From: Candidatus Bathyarchaeota archaeon
Lineage (GTDB): Archaea > Thermoproteota > Bathyarchaeia > 40CM-2-53-6
Assembly: GCA_005888755.1 (NCBI GenBank)
Contig: VBBQ01000024.1
Coordinates: 785-15,088 of the forward strand
Direction of reading: 5' to 3'
DNA length: 14,304 nucleotides
Below, piece by piece: positions 367 to 13,519 of this stretch. The notes beneath the pieces were generated by a model. The model was not told the origin of the DNA. It saw only the letters and a list, made by a program, of their open reading frames with translations, and searched no databases. Made by a program: the position numbers and the translations under genes. How positions within the stretch are numbered: position 1 is the stretch's first letter; each line of letters starts with the position of its first letter.

Positions 367-1815
367 GTGATTTCTACCAAAGACCTAGGCGAAGAACTGG
401 CGAAGATATCCCTTGACCTTGCAAAACGAGACAATGCGACTTATGCCGAGCTAAGACTCGTCAACACTCGATCTGAAGCCGTTACCGTCGTCAACGAGAA
501 CCCGGCCAGCGAAGAAACGGGCACGATTGGCGTTGGGATACGCGTACTTTACAATAATCTGGGCTGGGGGTTCGCTGACACCGATGAACTGGAACATGAG
601 AGCATAAGAGAGACAACCAAGAAGGCACTCTCCCTCGCTAAGGGCGCGTCCAAACTCGGGATAAGAGTCACTCGAGCTTCTGAGCCCGTTCATGTCGACA
701 AGTGGGAAACACCTGTCAAGAAAGACCCGTTCCGCGTCCCCACCGAGACCAAATACGAATATCTTCAAGATACTACCAAGAGAATGAAGGAAAACGACGT
801 TGTCGCCCGGAGGGGCCAGATGACGTTTGATTATATCGAGAAGTATTTCGCGAACTCGGAAGGATCCAAAATCTTCCAAACTCTCTCTTACGCGGGCGTA
901 TCCGCGATCGTTGCCGCAAAAGGACCCACCGGAGTCCAGAGACGATCGATTCAGCAGAACGCTGGGGGTGGTTACGAACTCGTGGATGAGATGGACCTTC
1001 CGGGTCAAGCCTTGGAAATTACAAAAGACGTTCTAGCACTCACTCGCGCGCCAACGATCAATGAAGGAAAATCGGACATTATCTTGAGTGGGGATCAAGT
1101 TGCGTTGCAGGTGCACGAGTCCTGCGGGCATCCAATAGAGCTCGACAGGGTTCTAGGGTATGAGGCGAACTTCGCAGGCCGAAGCTTTCTCCAACCAGAT
1201 CAGCTCGGAAAACTCCAGTACGGATCAGAACACGTGAACATTGTAATGGATGCAACCCTCGACCATGGAAACGGGCTTGGGACCTTCGGCTACGATGACG
1301 AAGGAGTCAAAGCTCAGCGAAAATACGCAGTCAAGAATGGAAAATTCGTAGGATATCTCATGTCCCGCGAAACCGCTCCTCGAGTAGGAGAGACCCGAAG
1401 CAACGGGTGCATGCGAGCCGAATACTACAAGCTCCCAATAATCAGAATGACAAACGTCAGTCTCGAACCCGGCACCTGGGACTATGACGAGATGATCGAG
1501 GATACACGCGATGGTTACCTTATGGTCACAAATTATGGCTGGAGCATTGACCAGAAGAGGTACAACTTCCAGTTCAACACTGAAAAGGGATACAGGATAA
1601 AGAACGGAAGCATAGGCGAAATGGTCAGAGGACCGACGTACGCCGGCATAACACCGGAATTCTGGAACTCTTGCGATGCAATCGCCAACAAGAAGAGCTG
1701 GGTGTTATGGGGTACACCGAATTGCGGAAAGGGCCAGCCCGGCCAGACTATGATAACGGGACATGGAGCCTCACCTAGCAGGTTCAGAAACATCCGCGTA
1801 TTCGGAGCATCATAA
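367..1815 (+). CDS. tldD: TldD family zinc metallopeptidase
   Basis: This 482-residue protein is the catalytic partner of the TldD/TldE pair. Known TldD/E complexes cleave unfolded peptides and, in bacteria, process microcin B17 and CcdA. The active-site motif HExxxH is present as HESCGH (His250, Glu251, His255). The C-terminal third metal-ligand region is present as NCGKGQ, with Cys453, in the position of the conserved cysteine of the family. The segment YYKLPIIRMTNVSLEPG is also typical of TldD. All three metal ligands are intact, so the enzyme should be active. The GTG start fits the TATA-like element 27 bases upstream. tldE begins 2 bases after the stop, so the two subunits are almost certainly co-transcribed and translated together. 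The protein should be cytoplasmic; no signal peptide is visible. Confidence 0.93.
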   Translation: MISTKDLGEELAKISLDLAKRDNATYAELRLVNTRSEAVTVVNENPASEETGTIGVGIRVLYNNLGWGFADTDELEHESIRETTKKALSLAKGASKLGIRVTRASEPVHVDKWETPVKKDPFRVPTETKYEYLQDTTKRMKENDVVARRGQMTFDYIEKYFANSEGSKIFQTLSYAGVSAIVAAKGPTGVQRRSIQQNAGGGYELVDEMDLPGQALEITKDVLALTRAPTINEGKSDIILSGDQVALQVHESCGHPIELDRVLGYEANFAGRSFLQPDQLGKLQYGSEHVNIVMDATLDHGNGLGTFGYDDEGVKAQRKYAVKNGKFVGYLMSRETAPRVGETRSNGCMRAEYYKLPIIRMTNVSLEPGTWDYDEMIEDTRDGYLMVTNYGWSIDQKRYNFQFNTEKGYRIKNGSIGEMVRGPTYAGITPEFWNSCDAIANKKSWVLWGTPNCGKGQPGQTMITGHGASPSRFRNIRVFGAS

Positions 1816-1817
1816 CC

Positions 1818-3218
1818 ATGTCACAAAAGATGGAACACCAACCCGTTTCTCTCCGAGAGAGAGCTCACCAGATCTTCACTACTGCGAAAAGTGTGGCAGG
1901 AAAAGCTGAGGCCGAGATAATACTGGTGTCCCGAGTTGACGAGTACCTTCGATTCGGGAATAACGAGCTCGCCCAGTCACAATACAGCACGAGCAGAAAC
2001 CTGTCCGTAAGGGTCGCGTCCGAAAAGAAACAGGGAAGAGTCACGACAGGCACCCTGGACAAGGCGTCGATCGAGAAAACCGTGGAGAAGGCGATCAGCC
2101 AGGCCCACAATTCACCTGAGGACCCGGATTATCTGCCGATGCCCGGACCCCAGAAATACCATACAGTCGATCGGTATAGTGAAAAGACTGTTGAAGCTCC
2201 GGCCGAATTGAAAGCAGGCTACATTGGGTCTGCTATCGATCTGGCCAAGAAAAACCGTCTTCTTGCGTCAGGGGTTCTCGGGACCAGCGTCGAGCATGTG
2301 ATGATGCTGAACACTTCAGGGCTGGAGGCATCCTATCGAGGATCAGGCGGATATTTCTCGTTGACAATGGACGCTGATAACGGCAACCAGACCGGATACG
2401 CTCTGTCAACCTTTGGCGACATCGGCGAACTGGACCCGAACAAGGTCTCCCAGACAGCCCTTGAAAGAGCTAAGTTGAACAAGAGCCAAGCGGAAATAGC
2501 TCCTGGAAAGTTCGACGTCGTTGTCGACCCATATGCGTGGAGCGAAATGTTGCTCTTCTTCGCTGTATCCGCATCCACGGGTTACAGTCCTGATCTTGGA
2601 ATGCGACAGTACAAGGAAGGAAGAAGCTACTTGTCAGGTAGGCTCGGGGAGAAAATCCTCGGCGATAATATCAGCATCGATGATGACGTTTATCATCCAA
2701 GCCAGGCGGGCCCGCCCTTCGACGGCGAAGGCTGCCAGAAGAGCAAAGTGTCGCTTATCGAGAACGGCGTCTTTCGAAACCTCGCCTCCTCCCGAATATC
2801 CCAGCACCGTTACGGCGCAGTAGCGACAGGCCACGAGCTACCTTTGCCAAATCCTCTTGGTGAACTACCGACTAACCTAGTAATTCGCGGCAGAGGAGCC
2901 ACCAAGACCTCGGAAGAGCTAATTGGAGAACTGGACAAGGGGCTTTTGATCACCCGATTCTGGTACGTCCGGGAGGTGGAGCCGCAGACCAAGACCGTGA
3001 CGGGCATGACAAGGGATGGAACGTTCCTAGTTGAGAATGGTGAGATCAAGAGACCAGTGAAGAACTTGCGGTTCAACCAGAGCCTCCTAGAATTGTTCAG
3101 TAAAGTCGATGCGGTGTCGGAGCCAGTGAGAAACTTCTCTGAGTTTCAGCAGTTCCGGATCCTCCAGCCCGGTATCCTGGCGAGGGACTTTAACTTCACA
3201 AGCGTCTCTCCCTTCTAG
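1818..3218 (+). CDS. tldE: TldE/PmbA family protein, partner of TldD
   Basis: This 466-residue protein is the non-catalytic partner of TldD. It shares the overall PmbA/TldD fold: an N-terminal domain with the SARNLSVRVA-like strand region (here TSRNLSVRVASEKK) and a C-terminal domain with GEGCQKSKVSLIENGVFRN and the RGRGATKTSEEL region. It has no HExxxH motif, as expected for TldE. In the known heterodimer TldE helps form the narrow substrate channel. The ATG lies 2 bases after the tldD stop, so expression is coupled. The C-terminal extension (about residues 425-466, ending in FNFTSVSPF) is not something I can assign. Length is normal for the family. Confidence 0.9.
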   Translation: MSQKMEHQPVSLRERAHQIFTTAKSVAGKAEAEIILVSRVDEYLRFGNNELAQSQYSTSRNLSVRVASEKKQGRVTTGTLDKASIEKTVEKAISQAHNSPEDPDYLPMPGPQKYHTVDRYSEKTVEAPAELKAGYIGSAIDLAKKNRLLASGVLGTSVEHVMMLNTSGLEASYRGSGGYFSLTMDADNGNQTGYALSTFGDIGELDPNKVSQTALERAKLNKSQAEIAPGKFDVVVDPYAWSEMLLFFAVSASTGYSPDLGMRQYKEGRSYLSGRLGEKILGDNISIDDDVYHPSQAGPPFDGEGCQKSKVSLIENGVFRNLASSRISQHRYGAVATGHELPLPNPLGELPTNLVIRGRGATKTSEELIGELDKGLLITRFWYVREVEPQTKTVTGMTRDGTFLVENGEIKRPVKNLRFNQSLLELFSKVDAVSEPVRNFSEFQQFRILQPGILARDFNFTSVSPF

Positions 3219-6520: not shown

Positions 6521-7621
6521 CTCTGCCTAGGAGGAAGATACTTCCCCGAAGTCAGGCTCTCGAAGGAGAGGACCCTTCTCATTGACGGTCCGGCATCCAT
6601 AGTTCTCGAGGAAGGAACAGCAGCGTCTCTTGCCGCCCCAATTCGCACTGGCGATTCACTGGTCGTTTCAAAACATCGCAGAATCCCCATAGAGACAGAT
6701 GCTGATGCCATTTTTCAAATCAGAATAGGAGAGCCCGGCTCTTACAGACAAGTCAACGGCTCCACCATTCCGTGGAGCTGGCGAGACGCAGCTGAGGCGC
6801 TTAGACATTCGCGAGGATTAGCTGTTATTCTGGGAGATGTCGACTCTGGAAAATCCACACTCTGCACGTACCTCGCCAACACCTGCCTAGGCCATGGAGG
6901 TCAGACCAGTATCATCGATGGTGATGTTGGGCAGGCAGACATCGGCCCACCAACGACCACCAGCTCCTCAACTGTAACCAAGCACATCATCAATCTCCAA
7001 GAGCTGAGCCCTGAAAGATCCTATTTCATCGGAGACACCAGCCCCTCCTCAATCCCAGACAAGCTCGTACAATCTATTACACATCTCCGAGACAAAATCT
7101 CAACCGGAAGCGAGATCACCATCTTGAACACCGATGGCTGGGTGAAAGAAGATGAGGCGGTCGAGCACAAGCGCCAGCTCCTAGACAGCTTACGACCAGA
7201 CCTTGTCCTTGCTCTAAGCCTCGATCACGAACTCGATCATATTCTCGAATTACAAAATCGTCCAACCCTGCGGCTCGAAGCCTCAAGCTTTGCCCTGACA
7301 AGAACAAGAGAAGAAAGGAAGAAGGCAAGGGAAGAAGGATACAGGCGATTTCTCAAGAACCCCAAACATCTGGATCTAAGACTTAACACGATCAAGCTCA
7401 GAATGTTCAACGCCCCCCAACAGCAACGACTCGACCAACCCACAACACACAGAGGAACAATTACCGGACTACTCGACGAGAACGGAGAATTATTGTCGAT
7501 CGGAAGGATCGAGCGAATCGGAAACGGCATCGTCCGTATCACAACAAGCACCGAGGAGACGCCGAGGACTGTTGAGCTAGGAGCGGTCGTTCTCTCTACA
7601 AGATTCGATGAGATCGGATAG
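6521..7621 (+). CDS. Clp1/Grc3-type polynucleotide 5'-hydroxyl kinase (start codon unclear)
   Basis: This family phosphorylates the 5'-hydroxyl ends of RNA and DNA with ATP and acts in tRNA and rRNA processing in eukaryotes; an archaeal member has the same activity. An N-terminal beta domain (RTLLIDGPASIVLEEG ... VNGSTIPWSW) precedes the P-loop GDVDSGKST (residues 105-113 counted from 6521) and the Walker-B-like DGDVGQADIGPP (residues 133-144), a strong signature of the family. A C-terminal beta domain (about 300-366) follows. The frame is open from 6521, just after a TAA at 6518-6520, but contains no ATG, GTG or TTG before 7124, which is well inside the ATPase domain. The real start is therefore non-canonical or hidden by an indel. 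A Gly-Gly-Arg codon run at 6529-6538 looks like a Shine-Dalgarno (aggaggaag), but no start codon follows in frame. It is divergent from the RadB-like gene. Confidence 0.85.
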   Translation, partial: LCLGGRYFPEVRLSKERTLLIDGPASIVLEEGTAASLAAPIRTGDSLVVSKHRRIPIETDADAIFQIRIGEPGSYRQVNGSTIPWSWRDAAEALRHSRGLAVILGDVDSGKSTLCTYLANTCLGHGGQTSIIDGDVGQADIGPPTTTSSSTVTKHIINLQELSPERSYFIGDTSPSSIPDKLVQSITHLRDKISTGSEITILNTDGWVKEDEAVEHKRQLLDSLRPDLVLALSLDHELDHILELQNRPTLRLEASSFALTRTREERKKAREEGYRRFLKNPKHLDLRLNTIKLRMFNAPQQQRLDQPTTHRGTITGLLDENGELLSIGRIERIGNGIVRITTSTEETPRTVELGAVVLSTRFDEIG

Positions 7622-8681: not shown

Positions 8682-9470
8682 ATGGCTTCTCAGACGCTCG
8701 GGGACACCAGGATACACGAGCTAACACAGATCCAACTAAAAGAACCCGTCCTGATTCAGGGCCTGCCCGGACTCGGCTATGTAGGAAAGGTTGCAGTCGA
8801 CTATTTTATCGAGAAATTAAAGCCCAAGAAAATGGGCGAGCTATACTCCAGCTACCTCCTCTTCCCGGACGGCAACCTAGGCATCAACATCTCAGAAGAC
8901 GGAACATACTCTCTACCACGATACGAATTCTACGGCTATGGCGAGCAAGATCCCAACGTCATCCTCCTCACCGGAGACGCCCAGCCAAGCGTAACTGGAC
9001 AGTACGAAGTCGCAAGCATTGTCCTCGACTTTGCCCAACGATTCGGATGTAAGGCCGTCTACACAATGGGTGGATATGGCACCCGCTCCGGAAACGACGT
9101 AGGAGCCGTCTATGCTGTCGTCGGAGAAGCCGCGCTCGGAGAACGTTTGAGAAAAATGGGAGCAAAACTTGCAAAAGGAGGCGCAGTCACAGGAGCTGCG
9201 GGAGTAATACTTGGCATCGGCCGACAACGCGGCATGCAGTGCGCAGGCCTACTAGGTGCAACGACCGGAGCCTACCCGGACTTGGAAGCAGCAAGGGCCG
9301 TAATCCAGATGTTGACTGGACTGGTCAGTATTCCAGTTGATCTGAAAGAGCTTGATTCGGAAATTGAGGACCTGCGCAAGAAGATGGAACGCTTCAGACA
9401 CGCAGAAGTTGAAGAGTCCAAGGAAGGCGAGGAAAAGCCCGAAGAAGGCAAGGACCGCTACATTACCTAG
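8682..9470 (+). CDS. PAC2-family protein (archaeal proteasome assembly chaperone type)
   Basis: The 262-residue product belongs to the PAC2 family, whose archaeal members (PbaA/PbaB) bind the 20S proteasome as assembly factors or activators. Family features are the N-terminal LIQGLPGLGYVGKVAVDYFI (residues 24-43), GELYSSYLLFPDGN, LLTGDAQPS, the glycine-rich YTMGGYGTR and the later GAVTGAAGVILGIG with LLGATTGAYPDLEAA. The C-terminal 45 residues form a charged, probably coiled-coil segment (DLKELDSEIEDLRKKMERF) followed by a Glu/Lys-rich tail. The protein ends in RYIT. This is close to the HbYX motif used to dock on the proteasome alpha ring, but the Tyr is third from the end rather than second. 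The ATG start is clear. The following gene encodes a PAC3/PAC4-like protein. Confidence 0.87.
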   Translation: MASQTLGDTRIHELTQIQLKEPVLIQGLPGLGYVGKVAVDYFIEKLKPKKMGELYSSYLLFPDGNLGINISEDGTYSLPRYEFYGYGEQDPNVILLTGDAQPSVTGQYEVASIVLDFAQRFGCKAVYTMGGYGTRSGNDVGAVYAVVGEAALGERLRKMGAKLAKGGAVTGAAGVILGIGRQRGMQCAGLLGATTGAYPDLEAARAVIQMLTGLVSIPVDLKELDSEIEDLRKKMERFRHAEVEESKEGEEKPEEGKDRYIT

Positions 9471-9535
9471 CCGAGAAGGCCTTCCTCCCTTCCCACTCTC
9501 CGGATCAGGCTGAGGGACCCTCGGGGTTTCTTTCC

Positions 9536-9543
9536 ATTTATAG
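9536..9543 (+). promoter_or_regulatory. TATA-like element for the PAC3/PAC4-like gene
   Basis: The sequence atttatag lies about 36 bases before the TTG start. A transcript from here would have a leader of about 13 bases that includes the Shine-Dalgarno-like aaggaga at 9568-9574, close to the TTG at 9576. It suggests the gene can be expressed separately from the PAC2 gene upstream. Confidence 0.5.
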
Positions 9544-9575
9544 CAGGAGAATACAAGAAGTGAGTTGAAGGAGAT

Positions 9576-9929
9576 TTGCTGGAAGCAAGTCTGGAAAGGG
9601 ATGGCGCAATCCACAAGGTGAGCCTTCTTCCCGTAGAAAACGCGGTTTTAGCGTTCTTTTATGACGATATATTCAAGATCGGCACTTTGGCAGTCTCGAC
9701 TCCAGGCTTGCGCGAGGGAGGACCAGCAACCTCATCTGTTCTTCTCGGCGGGAAATACCTGATCGCAGCGAGGGCCCTCTCGGAGAGAGTGGCTGCAATC
9801 TACAACAAGATGAGCATAGTGTCGATAAACACGAAGCTCTCAGAAGGCGAGGCGCTCCGCCTCTACGCGAGCCTTCTTGACAAGGCTAGGTCTGGCACAA
9901 GTGCTGACTCAGCTTCCTCTAAAGGTTGA
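9576..9929 (+). CDS. small protein resembling PAC3/PAC4 proteasome assembly chaperones
   Basis: The 117-residue product shows a pattern known from the small eukaryotic chaperones PAC3 and PAC4: a first beta hairpin (HKVSLLPVENAVLAFFYDD), a strand with IGTLAVSTP (residues 35-43), then SSVLLGG (residues 53-59), a helix with ALSERVAA, a strand IVSINTK (81-87) and a final amphipathic helix (EALRLYASLLDKA). The order and spacing match the PAC3/PAC4 fold by eye, and the gene sits directly after a PAC2-family gene. Eukaryotic PAC1-PAC2 and PAC3-PAC4 act together in 20S alpha-ring assembly. The TTG start is supported by aaggaga 2-8 bases upstream. The C-terminal tail is Ser-rich and probably disordered. 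The assignment is by pattern recognition only and needs profile comparison. Confidence 0.55.
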   Translation: MLEASLERDGAIHKVSLLPVENAVLAFFYDDIFKIGTLAVSTPGLREGGPATSSVLLGGKYLIAARALSERVAAIYNKMSIVSINTKLSEGEALRLYASLLDKARSGTSADSASSKG

Positions 9930-12230: not shown

Positions 12231-12791
12231 CTAGCTGAACGGGAGTATTGATACGATAGGAACTAGGAGTAGGACGCATATGATGAAGGTCAACATGCTC
12301 TGTTGAGTGCTGAGTCCCGCAGCGTGCTTAACCGCGAACACGCTAGCTATTCCTATCCAAGCGGCGCCAACGGCCCGGATGATCTCAAAGAGAATTGTTA
12401 TTTGACTGGACATCAAGATGAAAAGAAGTCCTGGAGCCCACGAGAAGAAAAATGGGCGGGATAGGCCCCAATAACCGATTGTTCTCCGGAAGAGTCTTGT
12501 AACGATCAGGAAGGTAGTGCCTGACCAGACAAACGCGATGACGAGGGCCGAGAACAAACCTATCATTGTAATTGTGAGAACGTCAAGTAGAGATGTTCCA
12601 GCGAGGAAAAAACCAAAGCCGGCACCGTAACATAGCCCGATTATTGCCACAACGAGAACGGACTGGGCAGTGGCGCTTGGATCATCTCTGAGTTCTCTGA
12701 AGGTCTCTCCGTCAAACCTTGCCGCTCTCAGCATCCGGGATCCCATTTTCTTGAGATTGAAGTCTTGTGTAGTATTGAATGGCCCGGTCAT
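12231..12791 (-). CDS. Yip1-domain-like membrane protein, paralogue A
   Basis: The 186-residue product has a short cytoplasmic N-terminus with MGSRMLRAARFDGETFREL, then five hydrophobic segments, about residues 44-66, 68-92, 115-131, 133-156 and 165-184, in a layout like Yip1-domain proteins. It is clearly paralogous to the next gene upstream: shared blocks are ARFD-x-E, REL-x-x-D-x-x-AT-x-Q, VWS-x-T-x-FL, GYW-x-L-x-RP-x-FFS-x-APG-x-LF and a TQ-x-x-x-LT near the end. The ATG at 12789-12791 is chosen because it gives an N-terminus of the same length as the paralogue; an in-frame TTG at 12893 would add 34 residues with no counterpart. Function is not known; archaeal Yip1-like proteins are membrane proteins without an assigned role. 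Confidence 0.75.
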   Translation of the reverse strand: MTGPFNTTQDFNLKKMGSRMLRAARFDGETFRELRDDPSATAQSVLVVAIIGLCYGAGFGFFLAGTSLLDVLTITMIGLFSALVIAFVWSGTTFLIVTRLFRRTIGYWGLSRPFFFSWAPGLLFILMSSQITILFEIIRAVGAAWIGIASVFAVKHAAGLSTQQSMLTFIICVLLLVPIVSILPFS

Positions 12792-12828
12792 TTTGTTGGT
12801 CTCGCTTTCCAGTTTCCCACTGTCGGCA

Positions 12829-12836
12829 CTTATCAA
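12829..12836 (-). promoter_or_regulatory. TATA-like element for paralogue A
   Basis: On the minus strand the sequence reads ttgataag, about 42 bases before the ATG at 12791. The same octamer precedes the paralogous gene at 13519, which suggests that the promoter was duplicated together with the gene. Confidence 0.35.
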
Positions 12837-12952
12837 GTCACGGGAAATTATCCCTGTCGCCCTCGTGTTATATTGAGAGAAGGTATTCTGCAAGATTAGC
12901 TGATACCTTGTCAGAACTGATTGAAACAGGCTCTAACAAAAATGTCGCGCAT

Positions 12953-13519
12953 CTAGATTGTCATCTGGATGAAAGCGAGGATTAGCAACCCTACAACCGA
13001 CGTCAGCAGCGCACGTTGAGTGTTGAAACCCATCGCACTTTTCAAGGCAACGAACTCTGCGGAGATGATCCATGAAGAGGCAATTACGGCTATGGCTACT
13101 ATGACAGGGGAGAAGGGTATCGCGATCAAGAGGAATAGGATGCCTGGTGCTGTGGAGAAGAATAAAGGTCGGGCGAGTTGCCAATAGCCTGTTTTGCCTT
13201 GGAACAATTTTGTTCCAACCAGGAAGACGGTTGCTGACCATACGAAAATGGCGAAGTCTGTTACGATCATGTTGGCTAAAGTCTGTGAGATGACAAAGTT
13301 TGGTGATAGAGTAGATTTCTGAAACCCGTTAAAGATGCTGAATCCAAATCCGTAGGATATGCCAACCAAAAGGAGGACGGCGACCGCCTGCCCAGTTGCG
13401 TTCTTGTCCTCTTTGAGTTCGCGTAACATCTCCCGGTCGAACCTTGCGACGTGATTGATTCGTGATCCGAGCTGTCGGATCTTACGTCCCGTGATAGGGC
13501 GTTCACCTCGCTGCGACAT
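12953..13519 (-). CDS. Yip1-domain-like membrane protein, paralogue B
   Basis: This 188-residue product is the tandem paralogue of the gene at 12231-12791. The N-terminal GSRINHVARFDREMLREL is followed by KEDKNATGQAVAV and then five hydrophobic segments at about residues 45-64, 82-103, 121-137, 139-157 and 167-187. The blocks FVWSATVFLVGTKLF, GYWQLARPLFFSTAPGILF and FNTQRALLTS match the paralogue. There is no catalytic motif. The ATG at 13517-13519 is supported by a TATA-like element 31 bases upstream. A 161-base gap separates it from paralogue A and each copy has its own promoter candidate, so they may be regulated separately. No function is proposed. Confidence 0.78.
   Translation of the reverse strand: MSQRGERPITGRKIRQLGSRINHVARFDREMLRELKEDKNATGQAVAVLLLVGISYGFGFSIFNGFQKSTLSPNFVISQTLANMIVTDFAIFVWSATVFLVGTKLFQGKTGYWQLARPLFFSTAPGILFLLIAIPFSPVIVAIAVIASSWIISAEFVALKSAMGFNTQRALLTSVVGLLILAFIQMTI

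Follow-up and report, generated by a model that had tools for sequence, protein, structure and literature searches.

The stretch of DNA analysed here, 14,304 nucleotides of a Candidatus Bathyarchaeota genome that we refer to as the window, carries a PAC2-family gene and, on the same strand and about 105 bases further on, a small open reading frame, as the original prediction had read them (Table 1). We call the 117-residue product of this second gene, and the family to which it belongs, PAC4L. Its nearest named relatives are found in soil "Candidatus Bathyarchaeota" assemblies, with 95% identity in PAC4L.

Table 1. Genes and other features of the window, with positions counted from its first nucleotide
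Feature	Position	Strand	Length and start	Basis
PAC2-family proteasome assembly chaperone gene	8682..9470	+	262 aa, ATG start	PF09754
Intergenic spacer between the PAC2 gene and PAC4L	9471..9575	+	105 bases	
PAC4L (PAC3/PAC4-like gene)	9576..9929	+	117 aa, TTG start	profile, fold, single copy
TldD/PmbA metallopeptidase genes in tandem	367..3218	+		
CLP1-type polynucleotide kinase frame	6521..7618	+		PF16575, E 4.1e-35
Yip1-domain membrane proteins, two adjacent in tandem	12231..13519	-		

The upstream gene is a firm member of the PAC2 family (PF09754, E 1.2e-38, 133.6 bits against a cut-off of 25.8); it scores 156.5 bits against TIGR00162, under the cut-off of 200 for that model. In its genome, three PAC2 genes and one PAC4L accompany a single proteasome alpha gene, located at G000:C16:28576-29130, and two beta genes. 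The C-terminal HbYX proteasome-binding motif of its product is not canonical, the protein ending in DRYIT with the tyrosine third from the end. A second PAC2 protein of the genome (L125) has its tyrosine at the same place (EYIG), and only the remaining one (L127) has a canonical HbYX end (RLYA). The motif is not carried by all PAC2 proteins, so that its lack does not exclude the upstream gene from the family.

The PAC4L frame is closed on its upstream side by a TGA at 9561-9563, which makes the TTG at 9576 the earliest possible start, and most relatives in the same family have TTG or ATG at the corresponding position. Being short and starting with TTG, the frame could have been spurious, an explanation ruled out by its conservation and by its dN/dS. 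In fact, PAC4L is detected in 56 of 61 related genomes, and the median pairwise dN/dS computed here is 0.14 and 0.09 in two subclades of the window's genus, as expected of purifying selection. The motifs that had been picked out by eye in the product are real and conserved, with N22, G36, S53 and G58 invariant across 35 relatives.

Elsewhere in the window, none of the first 201 codons of the CLP1-type kinase frame is ATG, GTG or TTG, and several relatives of this frame have an ATG at or near codon 1. Either the start of this gene is unusual, or its 5' part is damaged or mis-assembled.

Sequence relationship and predicted fold of PAC4L

Taken alone, PAC4L gives a single weak match in Pfam, to PAC4 (PF16093, E 0.015, 15.7 bits against a cut-off of 31), and no match in NCBIfam. 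A phmmer search of the lone sequence against the PDB returned nothing real, and the Pfam PAC4 model has no match in the window's own genome at E 0.001. The family, however, matches PAC4 significantly. A profile of 35 relatives, run against all PDB chain sequences, retrieves human PAC4 chains only (E 9e-9 and 1.1e-8), and PAC4 again comes first (8.8e-9) with the profile of a wider alignment that includes other families of the phylum (A4, as distinct from A1, the alignment of relatives). When the human sequences, which are identical to the PDB chains, are scored directly with A4, PAC4 reaches 36.3 bits and PAC3 12.0 bits, and 4,000 shuffled controls reach at most 8.3; the score of PAC3 lies above every shuffle, yet it is marginal, corresponding to E 1.2 on the scale of the PDB. 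By hhalign, PAC4 is aligned over about 78 columns. In the reverse direction, 31 of the 35 relatives match Pfam PAC4, and the best of them, from a genome (G038) in which the gene stands beside UbiD, obtains 38.0 bits and passes the curated cut-off of 31, so that at least part of the family would receive the PAC4 label from Pfam today.

Some relatives also match the Pfam family PAC_bac weakly (PF21758, best 8.6e-4); the family is nearer to PAC4 (36-38 bits) than to PAC_bac (20-26 bits). LpdD, the UbiD chaperone of Lactiplantibacillus plantarum, is not matched in PDB sequence searches with the family profiles. A strong PAC_bac protein is encoded in a Bathyarchaeia genome, G059 (L132:1375-1836), directly after a sugar-kinase-like open reading frame of 389 aa that looks, by eye, like an ADP-dependent glucokinase. 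It could not be shown that PAC_bac is the LpdD family, this PAC_bac protein having no LpdD match in the PDB.

The AlphaFold2 model of PAC4L, built on an alignment of 23 sequences (pLDDT 87, pTM 0.80), has the order E-E-E-E-E-H-E-H, that is, a six-stranded sheet with two helices as in the PAC4 and PAC3 chaperones. Among solved structures its best match is human PAC4 (8qyj_M, Z 12.5), followed by human PAC3 (8tm3_i, Z 12.0; 2z5e, Z 11.3) and yeast Pba3-Pba4 (2z5b and 2z5c, Z 11.8); 8tm3_i is taken as PAC3 from its matching PAC3 residue range, the title of the entry naming an assembly intermediate only. LpdD follows closely (8p4w, 8po5, 8pzh and 8pzo, Z 9.9-11.3, with 8p4w at 11.3), and unrelated structures come next at Z 5.3 or less. 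The comparison was also run with Foldseek. Because LpdD, a UbiD cofactor chaperone, shares this fold, the fold alone is no proof of a proteasome role. Judged from the sequence profiles and the predicted fold together, the likeness of the small product to PAC3 and PAC4 that had been seen by eye holds up, and PAC4L is almost certainly homologous to these chaperones. Neither outcome that would have spoken against this likeness, a lack of significant profile matches or a different predicted fold, was observed.

Distribution and neighbourhoods of PAC4L

Nearly all Bathyarchaeia have PAC4L, as one copy, and so do several other families of Thermoproteota. The window's genome has one copy even at E 10. 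In a sample of 397 genomes of the phylum with a completeness of 85% or more, 162 carry PAC4L and 374 carry UbiD, and each of the 162 has one PAC4L, a count in which a very divergent partner could escape detection. The proposal that the locus mirrors the eukaryotic PAC1-PAC2 plus PAC3-PAC4 system is not supported at this point: one PAC4L was detected per genome, and no PAC3/PAC4 pair.

The gene is next to PAC2 in 18 of 18 genomes of the window's genus and in one more genus of its family. When genera g2 and g4 are counted with the window's genus, PAC4L follows PAC2 at a distance of about 5-110 bases, which varies with the start codon chosen, in 19 of 20 genomes, and an extra open reading frame separates the two in the twentieth (a gap of 1.3 kb). 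Most members of a sister subclade have a spacer of 20-27 bases; elsewhere in the genus it measures 98-110. This adjacency is confined to the window's own family and is unseen in other families or orders; in one of these, family f5, PAC2 is found about 2 kb from PAC4L. Within the window's family, genus g3 (a single genome, 67% complete) has kept UbiD and has no adjacent PAC2. The predicted two-part locus, a PAC2 gene with a PAC3/PAC4-type partner, is conserved in the window's genus and one further genus, and as a pair it is absent from other families and orders. There, a UbiD gene comes directly after PAC4L in most of the lineages read with longer flanks, and unrelated genes are its neighbours in others. 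The adjacency may have arisen once only, and the genes around the pair are likewise conserved in the window's family, so adjacency alone is weak evidence.

Outside this family, UbiD is the next gene after PAC4L, and as a rule the two open frames overlap, at 10 of 20 Bathyarchaeia loci taken with longer flanks (L031-L050); two more of these loci have AcnX genes between PAC4L and UbiD. Families f27, f57 and f70 show the same direct order at each of their 15 loci. Other neighbours across the lineages include an HD-domain gene, a metallophosphoesterase, a thymidylate kinase and the CLP1 kinase. At most f27 loci, two open reading frames without a Pfam family are located just upstream of PAC4L (L102:6082-6753 and L102:5354-5851, both on the minus strand), and relatives of the former also occur at four Bathyarchaeia loci.

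The two genes can nevertheless be separated. The window's genome lacks UbiD, as do all 18 genomes of its genus and those of g2 and g4 (20 draft genomes in all), and no UbiX reaching the family cut-off was found in these 20 genomes; the only candidates, mostly open reading frames of about 425 aa scoring under 30 bits, were taken for a CoaBC paralogue. PAC4L is present in all 20. In the phylum sample at least seven of the 397 genomes carry PAC4L and lack UbiD: three belong to the window's genus, and the remaining ones are G024 (98% complete), G271, G275 (95% complete) and G410 (a single contig). Conversely, about 219 genomes have UbiD without PAC4L. Since each occurs without the other, UbiD and PAC4L are separable both ways, and UbiD does not need PAC4L. 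Several nearly complete Bathyarchaeia genomes, G042, G047, G052 and G057 among them, have UbiD beside PAC4L and no recognisable UbiX.

Proteasome assembly as the probable role, and the alternatives

What best explains these results is that the eukaryotic PAC3-PAC4 (Pba3-Pba4) pair has its archaeal counterpart in the single gene PAC4L. PAC4L is probably a homodimeric PAC3/PAC4-type chaperone of the proteasome alpha ring, and we lean towards proteasome assembly as its function in the window's genus. PAC3 crystallises as a homodimer. As there is one gene only, a homodimer is also the most likely state of PAC4L, and it would form through the face of the beta-sheet, as in PAC3 and LpdD. We infer that this dimer would bind the alpha subunit while the alpha ring grows, on the side of the ring that faces the beta subunits, where it would favour correct ring closure or delay the early entry of beta subunits. 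PAC1-PAC2 binds the face of the alpha ring opposite to Pba3-Pba4; by analogy, the product of the neighbouring PAC2-type gene would work on the outer face of the archaeal ring and PAC4L on its inner face. The eukaryotic Pba3-Pba4 pair binds alpha5 and that side of the alpha ring which faces the beta subunits, and it departs as these enter (PMC13022661, PMC10452565).

Several observations speak for such a role: PAC4L is kept in 20 of 20 genomes without UbiD, it is adjacent to PAC2 in 19 of these, it is under purifying selection, and a second family (f5) has PAC2 in its vicinity. Others count against it. About 235 of 397 genomes of the phylum, which as archaea would be expected to have proteasomes, show no PAC4L that could be detected. 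Outside the window's family, the strongest linkage is with UbiD, often together with AcnX, and not with proteasome genes. An archaeal alpha ring built from a single kind of alpha subunit reportedly forms without help (PMC13022661), which makes the need for a PAC3/PAC4-type helper uncertain.

Because PAC4L precedes UbiD in many lineages and has the fold of LpdD, a role as a UbiD accessory is a serious rival. PAC4L would then be an LpdD-like protein that loads or carries reduced prenylated flavin, probably for the archaeal mevalonate decarboxylase, and its resemblance to PAC4 would reflect shared ancestry only. AMPD is a decarboxylase of the UbiD family. The genes for AMPD and AcnX are together the key ones in the archaea-type mevalonate pathway (PMC11052028). 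LpdD, the only other solved structure to match the fold, acts as a homodimer, binding reduced prenylated FMN (prFMNH2) and helping to load UbiD decarboxylases, and the study that described it already pointed out the Pba3-Pba4 fold (PMC10865409). The UbiD-adjacent loci and the weak PAC_bac matches of some relatives lean the same way. Yet we consider the accessory role unlikely. The window's genome and genus keep PAC4L without UbiD or UbiX, so that a UbiD role is not available to PAC4L in this lineage, and at least four further genomes outside the genus also have PAC4L and no UbiD; over half of the phylum sample has UbiD without PAC4L, and in sequence the family is nearest to PAC4, with LpdD unmatched. 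Nor are there conserved histidines at the likely metal site: for the LpdD ligands His35, His61 and Asp63, the likely PAC4L columns 34 and 59, matched by position only, hold histidine in 0 and 1 of 36 relatives, respectively. For the window's genome, the missing UbiD and UbiX also led us to reject PAC4L as a simple LpdD orthologue.

An intermediate scenario, which we hold to be improbable, would have PAC4L begin as a UbiD/prFMN chaperone in Thermoproteota and be re-used for proteasome assembly, or take on both jobs, in the window's family after the loss of a UbiD-dependent mevalonate branch, the adjacency to PAC2 marking the switch. The loss of UbiD, the loss of UbiX and the adjacency to PAC2 do coincide in genera g1 and g4 (in g2 a frame has been inserted), g3 of the same family retains UbiD without that adjacency, and some Bathyarchaeia reportedly have a mevalonate route independent of the UbiD-type enzyme (PMC11052028). 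However, g3 is represented by one incomplete genome, and similarity to PAC4 is a property of the whole PAC4L family, the highest score against Pfam PAC4 belonging to the UbiD-adjacent gene of G038. It is less probable still that PAC4L serves a third role as a small dimeric adaptor, both neighbours being incidental. Its neighbours differ between lineages (HD-domain gene, thymidylate kinase, CLP1 kinase), and the proteasome and UbiD roles are both inferred, but the characterised relatives of the fold found here are proteasome or UbiD chaperones only, with PAC4 the closest by sequence.

Proteasome assembly by a PAC4L homodimer is thus the reading we prefer. The kinship of PAC4L with PAC4 and PAC3, right behind a gene of the PAC2 type, suggests that both halves of the eukaryotic proteasome-helper system have archaeal counterparts. 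More tentatively, PAC4L could be a single-copy, homodimeric archaeal precursor of both PAC3 and PAC4, assisting alpha-ring assembly in a homo-heptameric proteasome, with the same dimer serving, or having served, as a flavin-cofactor chaperone of UbiD, in which case the eukaryotic proteasome chaperones and the UbiD chaperones would have one origin. PAC2-type chaperones have already been described in archaea, whose proteasomes are described as self-assembling; we found no report of archaeal PAC3/PAC4 (Pba3/Pba4, PF16093) homologues or of Asgard assembly chaperones in the searchable literature, outside of which most subscription papers lie. With a conserved, single-copy relative of PAC4 in Bathyarchaeia and in further Thermoproteota, the origin of the PAC3-PAC4 pair can be put to the test: was an archaeal homodimer duplicated when alpha subunits diversified? 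The link with UbiD brings a second testable idea, a common ancestor of proteasome-assembly and flavin-loading chaperones. The window's genus, in which PAC4L is kept and both UbiD and UbiX are missing, is a natural place to tell the two roles apart.

PAC4L compared with known chaperones

Compared with known systems, PAC4L has in common with LpdD the fold (Z up to 11.3) and, in lineages other than the window's, gene linkage to UbiD; it differs in having no PDB sequence match to LpdD and in belonging, in the window's genus, to genomes devoid of UbiD and UbiX. PAC_bac is weakly similar in sequence to some PAC4L members, and at least one Bathyarchaeia genome, G059, has PAC_bac and PAC4L as two distinct genes. 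The archaeal chaperones PbaA and PbaB belong to the same PAC2 family as the upstream gene of the window and are of the PAC1/PAC2 type, unlike PAC4L; no archaeal partner of the PAC3/PAC4 type for PbaA and PbaB was found in the study consulted (PMC3605417). PAC3 (PSMG3, Pba3; PF10178) has the fold (Z 11-12) and the GTL and LLG motifs in common with PAC4L and, unlike PAC4, is just marginally similar to it in sequence (12 bits). From PAC4 (PSMG4, Pba4; PF16093), PAC4L differs in being a single gene for which no PAC3 partner gene was found, in also having the GTL motif of PAC3, and in having a host with one alpha subunit. PAC4 shares with PAC4L its length, its strand-helix order and the sequence from the LAV strand through LLG to LA.RLA..NK..VS, and it is both the nearest PDB sequence (E about 1e-8) and the nearest fold (Z 12.5).
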